Source: Halorubrum yunnanense
GTDB taxonomy: Archaea > Halobacteriota > Halobacteria > Halobacteriales > Haloferacaceae
Reading direction: 5' to 3'
Length of the DNA: 47,044 nt
Assembly: GCF_026586675.1 (NCBI RefSeq)
Contig: NZ_JAODIX010000063.1
Coordinates: forward strand, 1-47,044
Shown here: positions 8,689-47,044 of the stretch, piece after piece
Position numbering within the stretch: the first letter of the stretch is position 1
Layout: every line of letters begins with the position of its first letter
Position numbers and translations under genes: made by a program
Notes under the pieces: generated by a model
Databases searched by the model: none
What the model saw: the letters and a program-made list of their open reading frames with translations, nothing else
Told to the model about the DNA's origin: nothing

Positions 8689-8790
8689 GCAACCGGTAAA
8701 TTCCTATCGGTCGGGGGCCGAACGCGGCTGCCGCTCGCGGGCGGAGAACAGTCGAAAAGCCGATACAACCTTGAACGTCGTCGCCAGCGG

Positions 8791-8985
8791 TTACAGACGG
8801 GTGACGTTCGTGGCGCGCGGACCCTTGTCCGCCTCCTCGATGTCGAACTCGACTTCCTGACCCTCCTCTAGGTCCGGGCCGCCGACGTCCTCCATGTGGA
8901 AGAACACGTCCTCGTCCGCGTCGTCAGTCTCGATGAATCCGTAGCCGCCAGTGTCGTTGAAGAAGTCAACTTCGCCTTTCGCCAT
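8791..8985 (-). CDS. cspA: cold-shock domain protein
   Basis: A 64-residue single cold-shock domain that binds single-stranded RNA or DNA. The RNP motifs are present: GEVDFFNDTGGYGFIE (RNP1-like KGYGFI position) and DEDVFFHMEDV (RNP2), followed by EGQEVEFDIEEADKGPRATNV. The start at 8985 gives the standard MAKGEVDFF beginning; an upstream in-frame ATG was rejected. A TATA-like TTTTATGTG (minus strand, 9010-9018) lies about 26-33 bases upstream. The gene is divergent from the sdh operon. Confidence 0.93.
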   Translation of the reverse strand: MAKGEVDFFNDTGGYGFIETDDADEDVFFHMEDVGGPDLEEGQEVEFDIEEADKGPRATNVTRL

Positions 8986-9100
8986 TGCGTCCGTAAAACT
9001 GGGAGGAACACATAAAAGGCTTCCGCGAGCGAGAGCGCCGTGCCAAGGCGACTCAGGCCCGGACACGGCGGCGGGTCCGTCGGGGTCGATCCCGCCGTGT

Positions 9101-9116
9101 TAGTAACTACTATACG
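9101..9116 (+). promoter_or_regulatory. sdh operon promoter with overlapping inverted repeat
   Basis: TAGTAACTACTA (9101-9112) is a perfect 5-bp inverted repeat with a 2-base spacer, and the overlapping ACTACTATAC is the best TATA-like box for a transcript starting at or near the sdhC ATG (9139). A factor bound to the repeat would compete with TBP. This is inference from position and symmetry. Confidence 0.45.
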
Positions 9117-9138
9117 ACCCCGGTGGAAAGCGGTACGT

Positions 9139-9564
9139 ATGAGTCAGTCGTACAATCGAGGCCTCATTGAGGACTTCAGCCGGTGGCGGGAGTTCGAGGC
9201 GGGGATGTGGGCCTGGATCTTCCATAAGTTCACGGGGTGGGTGCTCATCGGCTACCTGTTCACCCACATCGCCGTGTTGAGCACCGGTATCCCGGCGGCG
9301 GGCGCGAGCGAAGCCGCGATCATGGCGGGAGAAGACGTGTACACCCAGACGATCGTCAGCCTCGAGAGCCTGCTCTTGGTGCGACTCCTCGAGGTCGGCC
9401 TGCTCGCCGTGGCCGTCTTCCACATGCTCAACGGCACCCGGCTCCTCCTCGTCGACCTCGGCGTCGGCCTGGAGTCGCAGAACAAGAGCTTCTACGCGTC
9501 GCTCATCCTAACCGGAGCGATCACCGTCGCGTCGGTGCCGACGTTCATCGCGGGGGCGTTCTGA
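9139..9564 (+). CDS. sdhC: succinate dehydrogenase cytochrome b556 subunit SdhC
   Basis: A 141-residue membrane anchor subunit of succinate dehydrogenase (complex II). Three hydrophobic helices are visible, starting near [21 protein letters not shown], with His residues suited to haem ligation in the first (HKFTG, FTHIAV) and second ([10 protein letters not shown]) helices. It is the first gene of a four-gene operon and is separated from sdhD by a single base. The start at 9139 follows the promoter by a short distance and gives the usual haloarchaeal MSQSYNRG beginning. High confidence from family pattern and operon order. Confidence 0.93.
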
Positions 9565-9565
9565 G

Positions 9566-9937
9566 ATGGCCGAGCGCTACTCCTCGTTCGAGTCGGGCGG
9601 CCGGATGTGGCTGTTCCAGCGGGTCACGGCGGCGTTCCTGCTTGTCGTGCTGGCGTTCCACTTCTTCCTGCTCCACTTCGTCCACCACGCCGACGAGGTC
9701 TCGTTCCTCGCCAGCTCGGCGCGGATGGAGCAGATAAGCTACTACTCGCTGATGATCCTCTTCCTCGTGACGGCGACGTTCCACGGGGTCAACGGCGTCT
9801 ACAACGCCCTCGTCAACCAGGGGCTCACCGGCACCAAACGCACCGTCATCAAATGGACCCTCGTCGCCGCGAGCGCGGTCCTCGTCGTGCAGGGCGTGCG
9901 CACCGCGAACGCGTGGGCGGGCATCGGACTCTACTGA
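9566..9937 (+). CDS. sdhD: succinate dehydrogenase membrane subunit SdhD
   Basis: A 123-residue second membrane anchor of complex II. It has three hydrophobic helices (LFQRVTAAFLLVVLAFHFFL; YYSLMILFLVTATFHGVNGV; KWTLVAASAVLVVQGV). Conserved His residues in HFFLLHFVHH and TFHGVNGVYN are candidates for haem or quinone contacts. It starts one base after the sdhC stop and ends 7 bases before sdhB, so the four genes are very probably co-transcribed. It supplies the quinone-reducing site together with SdhC and the iron-sulfur subunit. Confidence 0.92.
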   Translation: MAERYSSFESGGRMWLFQRVTAAFLLVVLAFHFFLLHFVHHADEVSFLASSARMEQISYYSLMILFLVTATFHGVNGVYNALVNQGLTGTKRTVIKWTLVAASAVLVVQGVRTANAWAGIGLY

Positions 9938-10888: not shown

Positions 10889-12718
10889 ATGCACGAACAC
10901 GACGTCATCGTTGTCGGCGCCGGGGGGGCGGGACTCCGGGCGGCGATCGCGGCACAGGAAGCCGGGGCCGACGTGGCCATCGTCTCGAAACTCCACCCGG
11001 TCCGCTCGCACACGGGCGCGGCCGAAGGCGGAATCAACGCGGCGCTGCGCGACGCCGACTCCTGGCAGGACCACGCGTACGACACCATGAAGGGGTCGGA
11101 CTACCTCGGCGACGCGCCGGCGGTCGAGGCCCTCTGTCAGGAGAGCCCCGAAGAGGTCATCCAGCTCGAACACTGGGGGATGCCGTTCTCCCGCGAGGAG
11201 GACGGGCGCGTCTCCCAGCGGCCGTTCGGCGGCCTTTCTTTCCCCCGGACGACGTACGCCGGCGCGGAGACCGGCCACCAGATGCTCCACACGATGTACG
11301 AGCAGGTGGTCAAACGCGGGGTCACGGTGTACGACGAGTGGCACGTGATGGACCTCGCCGTCACGGACGAGGACGACCCGGCGGACCGCACCTGCCACGG
11401 CGTCGTCGCCTACGATATCCAGAGCGGTGAGGTCAGCGGCTTCCGCGCCGATAACGGCGTCATCCTCGCGACGGGCGGGATGGGACAGGTGTTCGACCAC
11501 ACCACGAACGCGGTCGCGAACACCGGCGACGGCGTGGCGATGGCGTACCGCGCCGGCGTCCCGATGGAGGACATGGAGTTCATCCAGTTCCACCCGACGA
11601 CGCTGCCGTCGACGGGCGTCCTGATCTCGGAGGGGGTCCGCGGCGAGGGCGGCATCCTCTACAACGAGAACGGCGAGCGCTTCATGTTCGAGCACGGCTA
11701 CGCCAACAACGACGGCGAGCTCGCCTCCCGCGACGTGGTCTCGCGCGCCGAGCTGACCGAGGTCAACGAGGGGCGCGGCATCGAGGACGAGTACGTCCAC
11801 CTCGACATGCGCCACCTCGGCGAGGAGCGCATCCTCGACCGGCTGGAGAACATTCTCCACCTCGCGGAGGACTTCGAGGGCGCCGACGGGCTCACGGAGC
11901 CGATGCCCGTCAAGCCCGGCCAGCACTACGCGATGGGCGGTATCGAGACGAACGAGCACGGCGAGACCGTCATCGGGGGCCTCTACGCCGCCGGCGAGTG
12001 CGCCTGCGCCTCGGTCCACGGCGCGAACCGCCTCGGCGGCAACGCCCTCCCCGAGCTCATCGTCTTCGGCAAGCGCGCCGGTCGCCACGCGGCCGGCGAG
12101 GACATGGGCGAGGCGAAGGTCACGACCGGCAAGGACGGCGAGTGGGAGCCCGCGGACTACGAGTTCGGGGTCGAGGTCGGCGAGACGGGCGGAAGGGGCC
12201 CGGCCGCGGCCGACGGCGGCGCGGTGGCGACGGACCCCGAGGGCGTGCTCGGCGCCGCCGTCGAGCGCGCCAAGGACCGCGTCGACGCGCTGCTCTCGCG
12301 GAAGGGCCGCAACCACGCCGAGATCCGCTCGAAGGTCCAGCAGACGATGACCGCCAACGTCAACGTGTTCCGCGAGGAGGAGCGTCTCGAGGAGACCCTC
12401 GGCGACCTCCGCGAGGCGCGCGAGGCGTACAAGGACGTCGCCGTCTCCGACCCGTCCCGGACGTTCAACACCGACCTCATCCACACGATGGAGACCCGGA
12501 ACATCCTCGACATCGCCGAGGCGCTCACGATGGGAGCGCTCGCTCGCGAGGAGTTCCGCGGCGCCCACTGGCGGAAGGAACACCAGGAGCGGAAAGACGA
12601 GAATTGGCTGAAACACACCTTGGTCTCGTGGAACGACGGCGAGCCCGATCTCTGGTACAAGCCGGCGATCATCGAGGGCGAGAACAAGACGTACGAGCCG
12701 AAAAGCCGCTCGTACTGA
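10889..12718 (+). CDS. sdhA: succinate dehydrogenase flavoprotein subunit SdhA
   Basis: A 609-residue catalytic subunit that oxidises succinate to fumarate with covalently bound FAD. The FAD-binding motif is DVIVVGAGGAGLRAAIAA at residues 5-22, and the flavin-linking His is in RSHTGAAEGGINAAL near residue 44. Later fumarate-reductase motifs are QFHPTTLPSTGVL, EGVRGEGGIL and HGANRLGGNALPELIVFG. The ATG at 10889 was chosen since it gives the expected MHEHDVIVVG start, 53 bases after sdhB; upstream in-frame sequence overlaps sdhB. The acidic Gly/Ala-rich insert near residues 425-450 varies in this family. Confidence 0.95.
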   Translation: MHEHDVIVVGAGGAGLRAAIAAQEAGADVAIVSKLHPVRSHTGAAEGGINAALRDADSWQDHAYDTMKGSDYLGDAPAVEALCQESPEEVIQLEHWGMPFSREEDGRVSQRPFGGLSFPRTTYAGAETGHQMLHTMYEQVVKRGVTVYDEWHVMDLAVTDEDDPADRTCHGVVAYDIQSGEVSGFRADNGVILATGGMGQVFDHTTNAVANTGDGVAMAYRAGVPMEDMEFIQFHPTTLPSTGVLISEGVRGEGGILYNENGERFMFEHGYANNDGELASRDVVSRAELTEVNEGRGIEDEYVHLDMRHLGEERILDRLENILHLAEDFEGADGLTEPMPVKPGQHYAMGGIETNEHGETVIGGLYAAGECACASVHGANRLGGNALPELIVFGKRAGRHAAGEDMGEAKVTTGKDGEWEPADYEFGVEVGETGGRGPAAADGGAVATDPEGVLGAAVERAKDRVDALLSRKGRNHAEIRSKVQQTMTANVNVFREEERLEETLGDLREAREAYKDVAVSDPSRTFNTDLIHTMETRNILDIAEALTMGALAREEFRGAHWRKEHQERKDENWLKHTLVSWNDGEPDLWYKPAIIEGENKTYEPKSRSY

Positions 12719-40501: not shown

Positions 40502-41041
40502 ATGAATCAGCAGGATCGTGCTGTCACACCTGCTATTTCGACTATTCTTATGGTCGCAATTGTCGTTATTTTAGCTGCGGCAGTCTCTGTGTTTTTTCTC
40601 GGTGTGGTAGAAGATGTTAATGAACCTGCGCCGAATGTCGCGGATACAACTGGTGAGTTTGTCATTGACGAGGAGGACGCCGGGGACAATCAGATCGTCC
40701 GAATTACACATTTGGGTGGAGATAGCGTTGCTATGGAAGAAATCGAAATTATTGTTCGGGCAGATGCCTCTGGCGACGATGATTTTCCCAAAGAGGCTCG
40801 GTTGATTAATTTTCCGAACCCTGATGAAGATGACCCTGATAATATAATAGATTCTGGAGAGAGTAGTGTTGGGTTTGAAAAATGGGCTGCGAGCCGTACG
40901 ATTGAATTCCGAATAAACACAGGCGACGCTGACTTTCGTGTTGATGATAATAACACTGGCCCAGAAGCCGATACACTCGAAGTAATCATCGTACACACTC
41001 CATCGGACGCGATCATCTCGAAAAACACATTCACTCCATAG
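40502..41041 (+). CDS. type IV pilin-like protein 1
   Basis: A 179-residue secreted pilin. The class III signal has a short charged start MNQQDR followed by the hydrophobic segment AVTPAISTILMVAIVVILAAAVS, which prepilin peptidase (PibD) would cut near the start of the hydrophobic stretch. The remaining 140 residues are acidic and beta-rich and end in HTPSDAIISKNTFTP. The hydrophobic domain differs from the strongly conserved one of the two pilins at 43.7-44.6 kb, so it may form another filament type. The AT-richer codon use marks it as accessory. Confidence 0.85.
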   Translation: MNQQDRAVTPAISTILMVAIVVILAAAVSVFFLGVVEDVNEPAPNVADTTGEFVIDEEDAGDNQIVRITHLGGDSVAMEEIEIIVRADASGDDDFPKEARLINFPNPDEDDPDNIIDSGESSVGFEKWAASRTIEFRINTGDADFRVDDNNTGPEADTLEVIIVHTPSDAIISKNTFTP

Positions 41042-41357: not shown

Positions 41358-42134
41358 CTAATCGATCTGTAGTTCCCGAGCGGCATCTGCAGAGATGGTA
41401 ATTCTCTCACCACTACTCGTGACTCTCCCATCACACACTCCATCAAGGAGTTTCCAGAGATCTTTTATGAACGAAACCGGGCGCTTGACTTGGACTTGTG
41501 TGGTCGCTTTCTGTTTATGATCCAGCCCACGATGGCGGAGATAAATCTGCGCAAACGAGCGTCGAACACTCACAGGCACATCCCACACGGCAGGTGGCAG
41601 CCGGTCAAGCTTCGTTTTTTGACCGTTTGGCACACCCATCGTAACGAGACAACGTCCAAGTACTGAACCATCGTTTGCTGGAACAACCTCGGTTGATCTA
41701 CTCTTAGAATCTTCATGACGAGTTACAGTCTCAACACCCACACTCTCGAAGGCTTGTCGTATCTCTTGTATTTCAACTCGCTTTCCGGGTGCTACGGCAG
41801 GGACAAAAAATTTCTCTGAAATACTCCCACCTGAGAGAACATGTGCGAGTAGTTCGACAAGAGAGGCGGCAATCTTCCCATTCGGATTAGGTTCGACCCA
41901 ACTGTGTTGGATCGCCGTGTTGATTCCACGAACTGGATCTGGTACGGAATCGTTAATCCATCCACGAACACGACTACTGGGGAGGTCAAGCGCATTACCA
42001 ATTCGGACCCGACCAGCGTTCGGATGTTCAGCAGAATATTCGCGAACCCGTCGGTAGTCAAGAACCTTTTCCCATGGGTCTGGATATACTCGGTCACTAT
42101 AGGTTCGAGCGATTCCCTGTGCTGTCGGTTGCAT
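41358..42134 (-). CDS. HTH protein with LAGLIDADG-like segment
   Basis: A 258-residue protein of unknown role. Near the N-terminus there is a helix-turn-helix-like stretch (YRRVREYSAEHPNAGRVRIG then LDLPSSRVRGWIND, residues about 27-60). The C-terminal half contains LGRCLVTMGVPNGQKTKLDR, then LPPAVWDVPVSVRRSFAQIY, a layout that resembles LAGLIDADG homing endonucleases (G-x-P-x-G-x-K-T followed by a basic insertion and RxxF). A second LAGLIDADG-like Asp helix is not clear. It is probably carried by the island. An ISH3 element sits 29 bases upstream of its start and may have cut it off from its promoter. Confidence 0.55.
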   Translation of the reverse strand: MQPTAQGIARTYSDRVYPDPWEKVLDYRRVREYSAEHPNAGRVRIGNALDLPSSRVRGWINDSVPDPVRGINTAIQHSWVEPNPNGKIAASLVELLAHVLSGGSISEKFFVPAVAPGKRVEIQEIRQAFESVGVETVTRHEDSKSRSTEVVPANDGSVLGRCLVTMGVPNGQKTKLDRLPPAVWDVPVSVRRSFAQIYLRHRGLDHKQKATTQVQVKRPVSFIKDLWKLLDGVCDGRVTSSGERITISADAARELQID

Positions 42135-42352: not shown

Positions 42353-43498
42353 CTACCGGAAGAATCGGCTGTCGAGTGGCTGGTTCGCTGGAATGGACCT
42401 ACGTACACCAAGCGCTGTCCAAGCGGCCCGCAGCACCATCTCACAGAACTCCGTGAACGGCCACCTCCAGAGGCGGCGCCCCCCGCGGCGGGGCGCCGCC
42501 ACGTACCGCCAGTGTAGATACCGCCAGCTATTCTGGAGCAGTAGGCTCACCACAAACATCACCAGCCGTAGCCCAGCGTCCTGAGAACTGGTGAATGCGA
42601 GGCTCTGCTTGGCTAATCGGTAGCTCGACTCGATGCCGAAGCGCTTGCTGTAGTGTTCTCGGGCATCCCGTGGTGTGTCGATAAACGGCGCGTCAGCGGC
42701 GTAGCCGTGACGCGCCACCCCGTGTTCGTCGTATCGTCCCTGTTGGTAGACGCAGTCGATGAACACAGGGAACGTTACCTTGCCGGCGAGATCGTGTTCG
42801 ATCTCGCGGCTCCAGCCGCTACTGAGTTCGTCTTGGATCGTTTCACCCCACTTGACGATCGGCATCACGTAGGCGTAGTTGTGCGTGGACAACAGCCCAA
42901 GACAGGTGCTGTTGTAGAATCCGCGATCGAGATAGACGGCCTTGACGCCGAGGTCAAGGCCGTCGAGGAGTTCGAGAAACTCACCAAGGACGTCGCTGGT
43001 GGTGTCGCCAGCGACAAGCTGGCGCACCGCCAGCGTGTACCGCTTGTTGCGTACCCGCGCGTACAGCGTCGCGTACGCGTGAAACGTTGTGGTTCCTCGT
43101 TTCGCCTGTGAGAAGTACAGCGCTTCTGTTTCGTCTTCATCGCCGTAGTAGGGGTCGAGGTGGAGGTCTGCACAGACCTCCACCGGTCGATCTGGAAGCG
43201 TCTCAAGCGTATCTCGTTGAAGTAGCGTGTCCCCAACCGCCTCAACGGAGTCAAGTTCGAACTGCTCGGTGAGATGTCCTCGAACGGTGTTGGCGTGTGG
43301 CGAGTCCTCGGTCGTTTCGCAGACGTGATTGATCGAGGTCCCGCCGGCGCTGGCGCCGGCGAGGACCTCGTACAACGTCTCTGTCGTGACCTTGACGTTC
43401 TCGTCGAGATCTATCGCAAGCTCTTCGTTGAGGCTGTTGACGACAAAATTAAGGAGGTGCTCTTCTTCTATCTCGCTGTCTGCTTCGGTAGCTTCCAC
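42353..43498 (-). CDS. ISH3-family transposase
   Basis: A 381-residue DDE transposase. The catalytic residues appear in ADLHLDPYYGDE (first Asp), AVYLDRGFYNS (second Asp), and RFGIESSYRLAK (Glu, in the YREK-type box of IS4-like enzymes). The N-terminal 100 residues hold the DNA-binding part. The start is GTG at 43498; an in-frame stop lies just upstream, so no longer protein is possible. The gene is full length and the element is probably active or was so recently. High GC content relative to the island suggests it came from core-like sequence. Confidence 0.93.
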   Translation of the reverse strand: MEATEADSEIEEEHLLNFVVNSLNEELAIDLDENVKVTTETLYEVLAGASAGGTSINHVCETTEDSPHANTVRGHLTEQFELDSVEAVGDTLLQRDTLETLPDRPVEVCADLHLDPYYGDEDETEALYFSQAKRGTTTFHAYATLYARVRNKRYTLAVRQLVAGDTTSDVLGEFLELLDGLDLGVKAVYLDRGFYNSTCLGLLSTHNYAYVMPIVKWGETIQDELSSGWSREIEHDLAGKVTFPVFIDCVYQQGRYDEHGVARHGYAADAPFIDTPRDAREHYSKRFGIESSYRLAKQSLAFTSSQDAGLRLVMFVVSLLLQNSWRYLHWRYVAAPRRGGRRLWRWPFTEFCEMVLRAAWTALGVRRSIPANQPLDSRFFR

Positions 43499-43702: not shown

Positions 43703-43719
43703 CGGCTGGGTTGACAATA

Positions 43720-44127
43720 ATGAAACCAACAAATCTATTCAACACTGACGACCGGGCAGTAAGTCCTGTCATCGGAGTGATACTCATGGTTGCAATAACC
43801 GTGATACTGGCGGCCGTGATCGGGACATTCGTACTCGGTCTGGGTGACTCGCTTGGAGATAGTCAGCCGACAGCATCGATTGGTATTGAAGCGGGATCTG
43901 AAACTGGTGAGGTGGTGATTTCCCATAACGGCGGTGACGCTCTTACAGGGAGTGAGTTGGACGTAGTGGATGGATCCGGAAACAGTCTGAGCGGCAGTCC
44001 GCCTGGTGATCTTAGTGTCGGTGGATCAGTTACAGTCAGTAGCGAAAAAGCCACGGAAACCACTGTTCGAGTAATCCACACGCCTTCGGAAACGATCCTC
44101 GCAGAGAACACTGTCGATCTATCATAA
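43720..44127 (+). CDS. PilA-type adhesion pilin 2
   Basis: A 135-residue type IV pilin. The signal is MKPTNLFNTDDR, and the H-domain AVSPVIGVILMVAITVILAA, continuing VIGTFVLGLGDSLGD, is the highly conserved one of Haloferax adhesion pilins, in which it also tunes motility. The rest is a Ser/Thr/Gly-rich exposed domain ending HTPSETILAENTVDLS. The ATG at 43720 was preferred to a TTG nine bases upstream. The gene lies directly downstream of the ISH3 element and is followed by a close paralogue after only four bases. Confidence 0.9.
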   Translation: MKPTNLFNTDDRAVSPVIGVILMVAITVILAAVIGTFVLGLGDSLGDSQPTASIGIEAGSETGEVVISHNGGDALTGSELDVVDGSGNSLSGSPPGDLSVGGSVTVSSEKATETTVRVIHTPSETILAENTVDLS

Positions 44128-44131
44128 TATC

Positions 44132-44608
44132 ATGAATTCAAACAAATTTATTACTACGAGTGACCGAGCCGTGAGTCCTGTCATCGGAGTGATACTCATG
44201 GTTGCAATAACTGTGATATTGGCCGCAGTGATTGGGACATTTGTGCTCGGTTTGGGTGACTCACTTGGAGATAATCAGCCAACTGCACAGCTTAGCGTCG
44301 AAAATGCCAGTAGTTCAACTGATCTTGACGTATCACATTCTGGCGGTGATAGTATTGATCAAGCCGATCTCGAAATTGTCGCATATAATGGAGACACTGC
44401 TGTTGATCCAAGCAACGTAGATAACGACGCGAGAACCAAGCTTGGTAGTAGTGGTACTATAAGTGTTGGCGATAGCGTTTCTGTGAGCTATTCCGGCACT
44501 GGTACTAATAGTGTTACTGTCACCAAAATTAAGATAATCCACACTCCTTCAGATTCAATTATCCTGGACAGAAATGTGGAAATTAACAATTTTCATGGTT
44601 GGGACTAA
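44132..44608 (+). CDS. PilA-type adhesion pilin 3
   Basis: A 158-residue paralogue of the preceding pilin. The signal MNSNKFITTSDR is followed by the same H-domain (AVSPVIGVILMVAITVILAA), and even the DNA of the first 110 bases is nearly the same as in pilin 2. The outer domain shares only the pattern and not the sequence, being richer in Ser, Asp and Asn, and ends IILDRNVEINNFHGWD. The two genes form a tandem pair (4-base gap), probably an operon, and show a conserved assembly part joined to a variable surface part. Confidence 0.9.
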   Translation: MNSNKFITTSDRAVSPVIGVILMVAITVILAAVIGTFVLGLGDSLGDNQPTAQLSVENASSSTDLDVSHSGGDSIDQADLEIVAYNGDTAVDPSNVDNDARTKLGSSGTISVGDSVSVSYSGTGTNSVTVTKIKIIHTPSDSIILDRNVEINNFHGWD

Positions 44609-44754
44609 GCAGTAGGATCAGCCAGTCTTACTACCTCTTCTGTTCCTGTTCGATATTTAGGATCGAATTCATACAGATAGAGTATCGGTACAATACTCTT
44701 TAACCGGTCCAGCAACCTAATCGATATATCTCTGTTCAGAATCTATCTCAGCGA

Positions 44755-46554
44755 TTGACAATTGACGCCGTCCGTTCCCGTCTAAATAAAACGATCCAGC
44801 AAGCATTCGAGCAAGATGGAACCACTCTCGTCGAAGCTCTCCCTGCGATGGGAAAGAGCTACCACGCCGTCAAGTGGGCTGAAAGTACGGGTAGCCCACT
44901 GACGATCTTCACTTCTCGACGAGAGTTGTACGGACAGTACGAGAAGTGGTGTGAGGAACAAGGATTAGACTACCTCGTACTACCGGCGTTTCACCATGAG
45001 TGCGAAACGATTGGGGAGGATCATCCCATTGAGGGGAGGATTGATGACCTGTATGAATCTGGAATCTCAGGAGCAGAAATCCACCGAGAAGCAAAACGAT
45101 ACTTTGGCAGAGATCTCCCGTGCCAGCTTGACGGACCCTGTCAGTACATGGAGAAACGGGAGTTCGATCCTGAGAACTACGACGTGCTGATCGGCCACTA
45201 CCTCCAAGCTCACAATAGAGATTATATCGAAGAGCGATACGTCGCCATCGACGAGTTCCCTGGAGACTCCTACTTCTTTGAGCCAACTCACAACGAAGCG
45301 ACGAGGGCGGTGAGTAACTACCTGCGAGCTGAGGATACCCTTCCGTTTGAGAACTGGAAAGACCTCCATCGCCGGCATGATAACGAGGAACACGAGACTG
45401 TCGTCTCTGAATGGAAGGAGGAGATGGGATTCTATTCTCATCGAGATACACGAATCACTCTCCAACGAAGTCCACACTTCCATGCCCATGCTCCGCTTCT
45501 AACTCATGCTGCCATCGAGTTCGATCTTTTGGAGAACGAATGGGAATATGCCGAACTCGGTTCCGGTCGAGTAGCAGTCAGAACTCCCGAAGACGAGTGG
45601 ACAATCCTGATCCCTCCCCCATTCTACGCCGCAGAGAGCGTTGTCGCCCTGGATGGTACTCCAACTATCGCGAAGTGGCGGATGGTCCTTGGAGGTGACT
45701 GGATAGAGCATGAAGAGGTCTTAGACTCGGACGAAGAGAAGCGAGAATACCTCGGAGACGTTCTTGGCCTCAAAATCAAGCAGACAGACGCTGGTGCGAA
45801 GCCATATCAGAGTGGTTCTCACGTCAATGTTGACTCTGACGGCGCACTCTTAGAGAGTATTCACGAGGAGGAAGGCTCTCGTCCAGCTGTCATCACCTCA
45901 AAGCAAGCAAAAGAGCAGTACAAATCAACTGACGTACAACAGCATGTTGAGGTCGCGGAACACTATGGGAACCTCAAAGGGAGTAACAAGTTCGCGGAAA
46001 CACGGCTTGGAGCGATCATAGGAAGTCCACATCCTCCGGAGGGAGAGGCTGTTATCCGGTGGGGAGCAATCGACGGCGAAGCAATTTCACGGAAGGTGGG
46101 TGAAGACGGTCGCGTCACGAAGGGTATGAACTTGGACTTCGGGGGATACGGGAACGCACTCTTCCGAGACGTCGTCGAGAAAGAGGTCCTCCAAGCAATC
46201 ATGCGCTTTAGCCGAACCCCGAGTGAAGATGAGCATGGAGCGACAGTGTACGCTCACACCTCCCGTCTTCCGTACTGGGTGGAAGCTGACGAACGCTTGG
46301 AGGTCAACACATGGTCTAAAGGGATGGTCGAAGTTGTTGGCGCGATCCGTGACTCAGAGAAGTGGCCCGATGGTGAGTGGAAGAACGGCGAGATCGCGGC
46401 GGAAACCTCAGTTGGAGATCGACAGGTGGGTGAGCTGATGAAGGAACTGGACGAAGAGGGATACGTCACTCATCGTCGCGGCGGGCGCGGGAACGCGTAT
46501 CACTGGTCGAACGAACGCCTCGACGAGTTCTCGCGATACGGGCGCGTGGTGTAG
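44755..46554 (+). CDS. P-loop helicase-like protein with C-terminal winged helix
   Basis: A 599-residue protein of unknown role. Walker A is ALPAMGKSY (residues 28-36) and a Walker B-like VAIDEF with D166-E167 follows, as in superfamily 2 DNA/RNA helicases. Between them lie four cysteines (C66, C83, C123, C129), the last two in LPCQLDGPCQYME, which resembles the iron-sulfur region of XPD/DinG-type helicases. The C-terminal 60 residues form a winged helix (NGEIAAETSVGDRQVGELMKELDEEGYVTHRRGGRGNAYHWS). The start is a TTG (MTIDAVRS). It probably belongs to the island, for example a plasmid or provirus replication or defence protein. Confidence 0.65.
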   Translation: MTIDAVRSRLNKTIQQAFEQDGTTLVEALPAMGKSYHAVKWAESTGSPLTIFTSRRELYGQYEKWCEEQGLDYLVLPAFHHECETIGEDHPIEGRIDDLYESGISGAEIHREAKRYFGRDLPCQLDGPCQYMEKREFDPENYDVLIGHYLQAHNRDYIEERYVAIDEFPGDSYFFEPTHNEATRAVSNYLRAEDTLPFENWKDLHRRHDNEEHETVVSEWKEEMGFYSHRDTRITLQRSPHFHAHAPLLTHAAIEFDLLENEWEYAELGSGRVAVRTPEDEWTILIPPPFYAAESVVALDGTPTIAKWRMVLGGDWIEHEEVLDSDEEKREYLGDVLGLKIKQTDAGAKPYQSGSHVNVDSDGALLESIHEEEGSRPAVITSKQAKEQYKSTDVQQHVEVAEHYGNLKGSNKFAETRLGAIIGSPHPPEGEAVIRWGAIDGEAISRKVGEDGRVTKGMNLDFGGYGNALFRDVVEKEVLQAIMRFSRTPSEDEHGATVYAHTSRLPYWVEADERLEVNTWSKGMVEVVGAIRDSEKWPDGEWKNGEIAAETSVGDRQVGELMKELDEEGYVTHRRGGRGNAYHWSNERLDEFSRYGRVV

Positions 46555-46961
46555 GGTTATCGAACTCTGACGTACTAAGATCATACGTGATACCTCAGAA
46601 ATAGTCGTTCGCGAGTAGAAACGCATTGAGTGGGACTGATACCCCGGCGATTCCATACCCGCCAGGACACTTTATTGGAGATACGCTGCATATTTACCAA
46701 ATTTACATAATATAAATAAATATTATATTTATCCAGATCGGAACCGAGGACTCGTCTTTGCCTGTTGGTGGCAGGCCGTGAACGTGTGACACGATCCCAC
46801 ACTGTTCATAGATATATCCGTTGACAAATAGGAATCCTTTGAGCGATGTGTTGTGCGTGAAGCTGTACTTGGTAATTAGTATCAACAGCAACGGCGGGAC
46901 ACTTGCACGCGCTTGCCGCAACGCAACAGCAGCGCCCCCGCTCGCCCGTACGCGATAACAG
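46555..46961. other. AT-rich intergenic region with inverted repeats
   Basis: About 400 bases with no supported gene. At about 46699-46732 lies a dense AT stretch (ATTTACATAATATAAATAAA followed by TATTATATTTATCC) that contains ATAATAT and ATATTAT as an inverted repeat. Such easily melted DNA is found at origins and strong promoters; no repeats of an ORC-binding kind were seen. Chance reading frames here are not credible. Confidence 0.4.
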
Positions 46962-47044
46962 TTATAATTCTACTACGCTCTTGTGTAGCACATTGTTGAT
47001 TTCAGAGAGTAGCTTTGACAGCGTGTTTGAGCGCTTCTCGTCCG
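46962..47044 (-). CDS. C-terminal end of a gene, cut by the window
   Basis: On the minus strand the last 26 codons of a frame entering from the right edge read DEKRSNTLSKLLSEINNVLHKSVVEL and stop at 46962-46964. The helix-like, charged pattern looks like a real protein tail. No family can be named from so short a piece. Confidence 0.35.
   Translation of the reverse strand, partial: DEKRSNTLSKLLSEINNVLHKSVVEL

Follow-up and report, generated by a model that had tools for sequence, protein, structure and literature searches.

What kind of protein is encoded at 44755-46554 of the window (the whole stretch of DNA analysed here, 47,044 nucleotides, which is the entire contig C77 of the 3.17-Mb haloarchaeal genome of Halorubrum yunnanense), and what might it do for the DNA that carries it? 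The first-pass annotation described a helicase-like protein that ends in a winged helix and has four cysteines between its Walker motifs, and proposed a role in the replication of a plasmid or virus or in defence. The open reading frame is intact. The 599-residue protein has no cysteines besides C66, C83, C123 and C129, and all four lie between motif I and D166-E167, where that annotation had placed them. The gene is under purifying selection (dN/dS 0.09 and 0.14 against two Halorubrum relatives with 89% and 86% amino acid identity, respectively). The features to which the text refers are given below in window coordinates, with fractions counted over a set of 82 homologous helicase domains.

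44755-46554, + strand: helicase coding sequence, 599 amino acids, TTG start; XPD/DinG-like SF2 protein with a C-terminal winged helix, stand-alone form
44836-44859, + strand: motif I (Walker A), A28-LPAMGK34-S35; G33 and K34 in 82/82 homologues
44950-44952, + strand: C66; C in 46/82, A in 24/82; probably outside the metal site
45001-45003, + strand: C83, first ligand of the predicted metal site; 82/82; placed by hhalign on the first Fe-S cysteine of haloarchaeal XPD
45082-45084, + strand: H110, predicted ligand; 82/82
45121-45123, + strand: C123, predicted ligand; 81/82
45139-45141, + strand: C129, predicted ligand; 82/82; weak alignment with the last Fe-S cysteine of XPD
45250-45261, + strand: motif II (Walker B-like), D166-E167-F-P; D and E each 82/82
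45649-45663, + strand: motif III-like L299-DGT-P303; D300 82/82, G301 65/82 (A in 17)
46192-46215, + strand: motif VI, Q480-R487 (QAxxRFxR); Q480 and R484 82/82, R487 81/82
46318-46512, + strand: C-terminal winged helix, approximately residues 522-586, from DSSP of the model and weak HTH profile matches
44740-46637, + strand: sole DNA homology around the gene to the G013 and G278 loci, which hold the closest orthologues in the genus (blastn); the flanks differ

Single-sequence searches of Pfam, NCBIfam, PADLOC and the PDB with the window protein gave no significant helicase match, a search of PHROGs gave just a weak match to the C-terminal HTH, and a sequence profile search alone found XPD only faintly (2vl7, E 0.059). 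Pfam DEAD_2 (PF06733) has no match in the protein at E <= 1, although it does match other proteins of the genome. An AlphaFold2 model based on 31 related sequences (mean pLDDT 84.8, pTM 0.79) has two RecA domains in the XPD/DinG arrangement. The first six Foldseek matches in the PDB are to XPD (4a15, 3crw, 5fmf from TFIIH, and 2vl7) and DinG (8zef and 6fws), with E values of 6e-8 to 6e-7, and are followed by a DEAD-box protein and SecA at E 1.5e-4 and weaker; the first 20 rows from VIA-align 2 are all XPD, TFIIH-XPD or DinG, including CasDinG (Z 18.9 to 14.9, rmsd 4.1-7.2, 338-462 residues aligned). The winged-helix tail of the first-pass annotation is likewise seen in the predicted structure and in the weak HTH matches. 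The D5-type helicases gave little: Pox_D5 aligned below threshold to residues 51-88 (E 0.047), and D5_N/DUF5906 has no match in the window protein or in P0001-P0004. A known halovirus replication protein was also tried and rejected, because the window protein found no match by tblastn in the phage collection, so that at that sensitivity it is not one of these proteins.

For residue conservation, helicase domains were drawn from the open reading frames of homologous loci, excluding those with stops or partial coverage; the resulting 124 full-length domains, 95 of them distinct, were reduced to 82 below 90% identity. Among these, motifs I, II (DE), III (LDGTP) and VI (QAxxRFxR) are near-invariant, with K34, D166, E167, D300, Q480 and R484 each present in 82/82 and R487 in 81/82, and we read LDGTP as probably standing where XPD has the SAT of motif III. 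Haloarchaeal XPD sequences (PF06733 matches in the same genome and related ones) were compared by hhalign. Residues 1-260 aligned with a probability of 96 and an E value of 1.6e-9, with motif I in register and C83 on the first of the cysteines that we take to hold the cluster in haloarchaeal XPD. The alignment of residues 70-260 was weak (probability 1.7, E 0.029), and just two placements from it, that of motif II and that of C129 (the cysteine of a CxY motif) on the last XPD cysteine, were used, as a lead; global mode and the alignment of residues 280-530 with XPD gave nothing useful.

The near-invariant motifs and the profile alignment correct the earlier impression that the rest of the protein lacks standard XPD motifs, and, with the fold matches, they uphold the proposal of an XPD/DinG-related helicase with an insertion of the metal-binding type. 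Compared with the consensus in XPD/DinG (DEAH in motif II, QxxGRxxR in motif VI), the 82 homologues have an invariant DE that continues as DEFP, and they keep motif VI as Q-x3-R-x2-R without the glycine. The departures of C66 and of motif II from XPD, together with the missing DEAD_2 match, speak against the reading as an XPD/DinG-kind helicase. As the window protein fails two defining features, the four-cysteine set and DEAD_2, it is a relative of XPD/DinG that is not filed as a member.

The predicted metal site differs from the one originally drawn. The first-pass annotation had likened the position of all four cysteines to that of the iron-sulfur cluster in XPD/DinG helicases and had named poor conservation of these in homologues as evidence to the contrary. 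Three of them are conserved, C83 in 82/82, C123 in 81/82 and C129 in 82/82, and C66 is not (46/82); the position of C66 precedes the cysteine that aligns with the first XPD cluster cysteine. A CCCC Fe-S set between motifs I and II is not conserved among the 82 homologues, and a metal quartet that includes C66 was rejected on these counts. Because H110 is found in 82/82 while C66 is found in merely 46/82, the site is predicted to be Cys3His, C83-H110-C123-C129. Such a C-H-C-C site might hold zinc in place of Fe-S, which would make the family a zinc-containing XPD relative and would be compatible with the replication role favored below. The invariance of the histidine as second ligand makes this quite conceivable, though we lean somewhat the other way, given that Fe-S cysteines of XPD are matched in the alignments by C83 and, less securely, by C129. 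Passages of a 2025 review also weigh against zinc, describing bacterial DinG-like proteins as mostly CCCC and stating that variants with His, Ser or Asp for one Cys (for example CCHC) may still coordinate the Fe-S cluster (PMC11981726).

Homologues were found in 122/391 Halobacteria genomes and on 15 plasmid records of a plasmid collection, 30 genome-contig loci and 4 viral contigs; in the phylum-wide search (96/392 genomes), matches beyond Halobacteria were mostly to the HTH only and were excluded as relatives. In Halobacteria the family takes two forms, one fused to a primase on small plasmids and one standing alone in elements of 4.6-12 kb. Many homologues lie inside open reading frames of 950-1800 amino acids, and among 37 distinct proteins with more than 150 residues N-terminal to the helicase, most bear one of three primases (L070, L073 and L129 were left unclassed by N-terminal type). 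DnaG/TOPRIM primases are fused to the helicase in P0002, L016 and L072, as judged by DNAG_N (E 3e-10 in L016 and 6e-9 in L072), and the Prim-Pol domain PF09250 in L017 (E 1e-10) and L026 (E 2e-7). The third type, represented by the N-terminus of L069, has no Pfam match, and its model has a pLDDT of 70 and a pTM of 0.46. Its only six Foldseek matches below 0.001 are all to the primase-polymerase of phage NrS-1 (E 2e-11 to 5e-9), and VIA aligned 168 residues with NrS-1 PrimPol at Z 17.6 and 25% identity. The linker of L069-type proteins has a CHC2-like zinc-finger match (2au3, Z 6.6), and L042, L043, L044, L045, L083 and L084 (1600-1800 amino acids) have in common a long primase-helicase linker, whichever primase is present. 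Fused forms were also seen in L070 and L074, on contigs of Thermoplasmata MAGs from sediment, reflecting either transfer or a binning error.

The primases appear, from the sequences, to have been exchanged repeatedly among helicase relatives. A tree of 83 helicase domains, built by a quick method and supported by SH-aLRT values only, requires 10 changes among the four architectures, and its starred branches force at least five for TOPRIM. Between L016, L017 and L018 the helicases share 84-86% identity, yet the first of these is joined to TOPRIM and the other two to PF09250. In turn, the plasmid protein's NrS-1-type PrimPol shares 40.8% identity with the N-terminus of a protein from a Halorubrum tailed virus (L170, 5046-8207; OP630574.1), in which the same PrimPol is fused to a D5_N/DUF5906 helicase; a Halarchaeum plasmid protein (L171, 3950-7267) likewise joins an NrS-1-type PrimPol to D5_N/DUF5906. 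As the same PrimPol is thus found with either motor, the XPD-like helicase appears to take the place of an SF3 replicative helicase. The fused gene is much larger than every other gene on two complete plasmids, one of 8.9 kb from Halorientalis litorea and one of 10.8 kb from Halomarina, neither of which carries a further annotated replication gene.

The stand-alone form, of which the window copy is an example, was surveyed in 53 loci with up to 20 kb of their surroundings (L129, with a longer N-terminal frame, was set aside) and compared with 20 control windows at arbitrary spots on the same contigs. Tyrosine integrases were detected with profiles built up from two cases confirmed by Pfam and from two integrases annotated on plasmids. 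An integrase lies within 10 kb in 46/53 stand-alone loci versus 2/20 controls (Fisher p 1e-9, ignoring relatedness; the loci are related to one another, and the counts overstate their independence), within 5 kb in 40/53, and within 2 kb in 26/53. tRNA genes were found in 29/49 scanned loci (5/54 were unscanned) as against 1/20 controls. In 16 of these 29 the helicase gene sits between the tRNA and a duplicated segment of the tRNA 3' end, a direct repeat of 18-65 bp that was accepted if it exceeded in length whatever 20 random probes gave in that locus. Of the remaining 13, the repeat equals the best random probe in five, does not enclose the helicase in one, and does not exceed 11 bp in seven.

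The 16 att-bounded elements span 4.6 to 12.0 kb. They were selected on the helicase, and the integrase is the sole other universal gene, the next commonest family being present in 5/16. Fourteen of the integrases come from one family, and those of L091 and L095, recovered by the integrase profiles, from another. The smallest element, of 4.6 kb in Haloarcula amylovorans, holds the integrase, the helicase and one clear further gene. The L060 element is otherwise complete at 5.3 kb and may be fixed in place, as its integrase (8715-9773) is split into two open reading frames. In L031, positions 10950-11063, which closely follow the G013 orthologue of 89% identity on its downstream side, contain a 13-nucleotide unit three times and a 12-nucleotide unit twice in tandem, short direct repeats that are a possible origin or set of iterons. 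Iterons were also looked for next to the window gene and were not found.

The closest orthologue of the window gene, the 89% one in G013, lies inside an 11.5-kb element bounded by tRNA-Val repeats of 36 bp. DNA homology extends from 44779 to 46637 against G013 and from 44740 to 46637 against G278, and the downstream flank is matched in 3/52 genomes of the genus, its own included; such differences between flanks would fit a mobile gene sitting in different places. The contig ends at 47044, 490 bp past the helicase gene, in repeated sequence: approximately 71 bp at 46974-47044 recur elsewhere in the genome (17 matches in all) and are probably the terminus of an insertion sequence at which the assembly broke off. 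Up to that end no integrase or att repeat was identified near the gene, a T-arm motif that was tried is absent from the window, and the only tRNA of the window is 31 kb from the helicase. Two archaeal pilin genes (PF07790) stand in tandem directly upstream of the helicase at 43711-44127 and 44132-44608 (+ strand), the former also matching viral PHROG families, and the N-terminus of an open reading frame at 40502-41041 (+ strand) looks similar to pilins by eye. An ISH3-family transposase (42353-43498, - strand; NCBIfam E 1e-110) lies between the pilin pair and a halovirus-type protein. The latter, at 41358-42134 (- strand), belongs to PHROG 14115 (E 6e-97), a family with no known function, and may be a sign of virus or plasmid ancestry at that end of the contig.

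From the position of the G013 orthologue, we infer that the window copy lies in a tRNA-integrating element. It could instead be a chromosomally domesticated remnant that is no longer part of any mobile element, as the contig shows neither an att repeat nor an integrase, the upstream genes include those for an ISH3 transposase and for pilin-type proteins, and homology to relatives is confined to the gene. We consider this unlikely, though not strikingly so: the reading frame is intact with dN/dS of 0.09-0.14, the G013 orthologue sits between tRNA-Val repeats, and the contig stops so soon after the gene.

The helicase either adjoins an integrase or is joined to a primase of one of three unrelated types, and for this reason we take it as the probable motor for copying or maintaining these elements. 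Our best explanation, which we hold to be probable, is that the family consists of XPD/DinG-kind ATP-driven DNA helicases that serve the replication or maintenance of haloarchaeal plasmids and tRNA-integrating elements. The replication role suggested at the outset has thereby gained three primase fusions, the standing of the fused gene as the largest on small plasmids, and a place for the stand-alone gene in the core of tRNA-integrated elements; the primase fusions and the element-specific distribution are seen in relatives, the window copy itself having no primase. Its main rival for the stand-alone form is that this form serves integration and excision or transfer, remodelling or unwinding att DNA for the integrase or protecting the excised circle. 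The constant presence of an integrase (16/16 att-bounded elements), often within 2 kb (26/53 loci), would suit such a task, and so would the scarcity of primases, since none of the three types was found near the 53 stand-alone loci apart from one weak match at a single locus, so that replication may not be the task of the stand-alone form. This alternative nonetheless seems rather improbable to us, because on free plasmids the relatives come joined to three primases of unrelated kinds and because the integrases themselves come from at least two families.

A less likely possibility still, and one to which we give little credence, is that the helicase is cargo used in defence against viruses or competing plasmids, as CasDinG is in type IV CRISPR systems. 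Its fold does resemble that of CasDinG (Z 17.8), and restriction-type methylases lie within 10 kb in 16/53 stand-alone loci versus 1/20 controls (Fisher p 0.03). The restriction genes vary among the elements, however, while the helicase is constant, so these systems look like cargo of the same elements. PADLOC gave 0 families at E <= 1, and the helicase belongs to plasmid primase fusions; both speak against the defence role offered by the first-pass annotation. A more specific version of the replication and maintenance reading, which we put at about even chances, is that a distinct Cys3His branch of XPD/DinG took over as replicative helicase throughout a whole class of haloarchaeal plasmids and in minimal tRNA-integrating elements of integrase and helicase (down to 4.6 kb), repeatedly swapping three unrelated primases and replacing D5/SF3 behind the same PrimPol.

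In such a scheme, the window protein would use its winged helix to recognise the DNA of the element, and the RecA motor together with the small Fe-S or Zn insertion between motifs I and II would separate the strands, the metal site helping as it does in XPD. Priming would fall to the fused primase in the plasmid forms and to a host primase in the stand-alone form, the one that includes the window copy and that pairs with a tyrosine integrase in small elements integrating at tRNA genes. Helicase activity, origin binding and the presence of metal at the site are what we infer of the protein from its sequence and predicted structure.

How does this compare with known systems? With XPD/DinG (Rad3-type) proteins the family has in common the overall fold, the cysteine-bearing insertion between motifs I and II, the QxxxRxxR of motif VI and the context of motif I. 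It differs from them in having Cys3His and not Cys4, DEFP and not DEAH, and no DEAD_2 match, and in adding a C-terminal winged helix, a mobile-element setting and primase fusions. The 2025 review places XPD/DinG functions in repair, transcription and CRISPR, and none of the ten DinG subgroups in its section 5 has a primase or a winged helix (PMC11981726). CasDinG is, like the window family, plasmid-borne and of the XPD/DinG fold; the passages that describe it give it a vestigial Fe-S domain, whereas the ligands here are conserved. NrS-1 PrimPol, pRN1 ORF904 and the D5/P4-type primase-helicases resemble the family in their plasmid primase-helicase architecture and, for the NrS-1-type fusions, in the PrimPol domain, but the motor here is an XPD/DinG-like SF2 one and not SF3/D5 or AAA+.

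Fusions of AEP primases with SF3, MCM or poorly defined SF2 helicases are known from published passages (PMC5862659). Compared by description, the All3500-type AEPs with the SF2-like helicases pVOG 1685/9714 in that paper are the same kind of AEP-SF2-related fusion on mobile elements; pVOG 9714 is there likened to herpesvirus UL9, and the words XPD, DinG and halo- are all absent from the main text. The arCOG07809 (Mpal_2033) elements, as outlined in the relevant part of PMC4158269, combine a primase, an SF1 helicase, an HTH and a Zn finger and have primase-less homologues. They are thus integrated archaeal elements with a helicase that comes with or without a primase, as here, but with an SF1 helicase and a methanogen as the named example. 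The SCCmec proteins CCPol-MP and Cch2, again compared by description, belong to integrative elements with their own helicase binding a putative origin, and differ in that the primase-polymerase is unrelated and Cch2 is a 3'-to-5' helicase (passages of PMC7581432). The helicase family is not described in the passages on pleolipoviruses (PMC10599561), pL6 plasmids (PMC11431627) and archaeal integrases (PMC8371274), PMC13107129 contains none of the terms sought for it, and no description of it was found in searches of an open-licence PMC library. We see in the family a variation on known systems: a proposed primase-helicase module for replication whose motor is of the XPD/DinG type, with a branch of that motor standing alone in minimal integrative elements.

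XPD and DinG are helicases of repair, transcription and CRISPR systems. The residues C83, H110, C123, C129 and K34 can be tested, and small model elements are at hand for doing so. If true, a replicon helicase related to XPD/DinG and working with interchangeable primases would be a new engine among plasmid replication machines, and would explain the copying of many 'cryptic' haloarchaeal plasmids and tRNA-bound islands.
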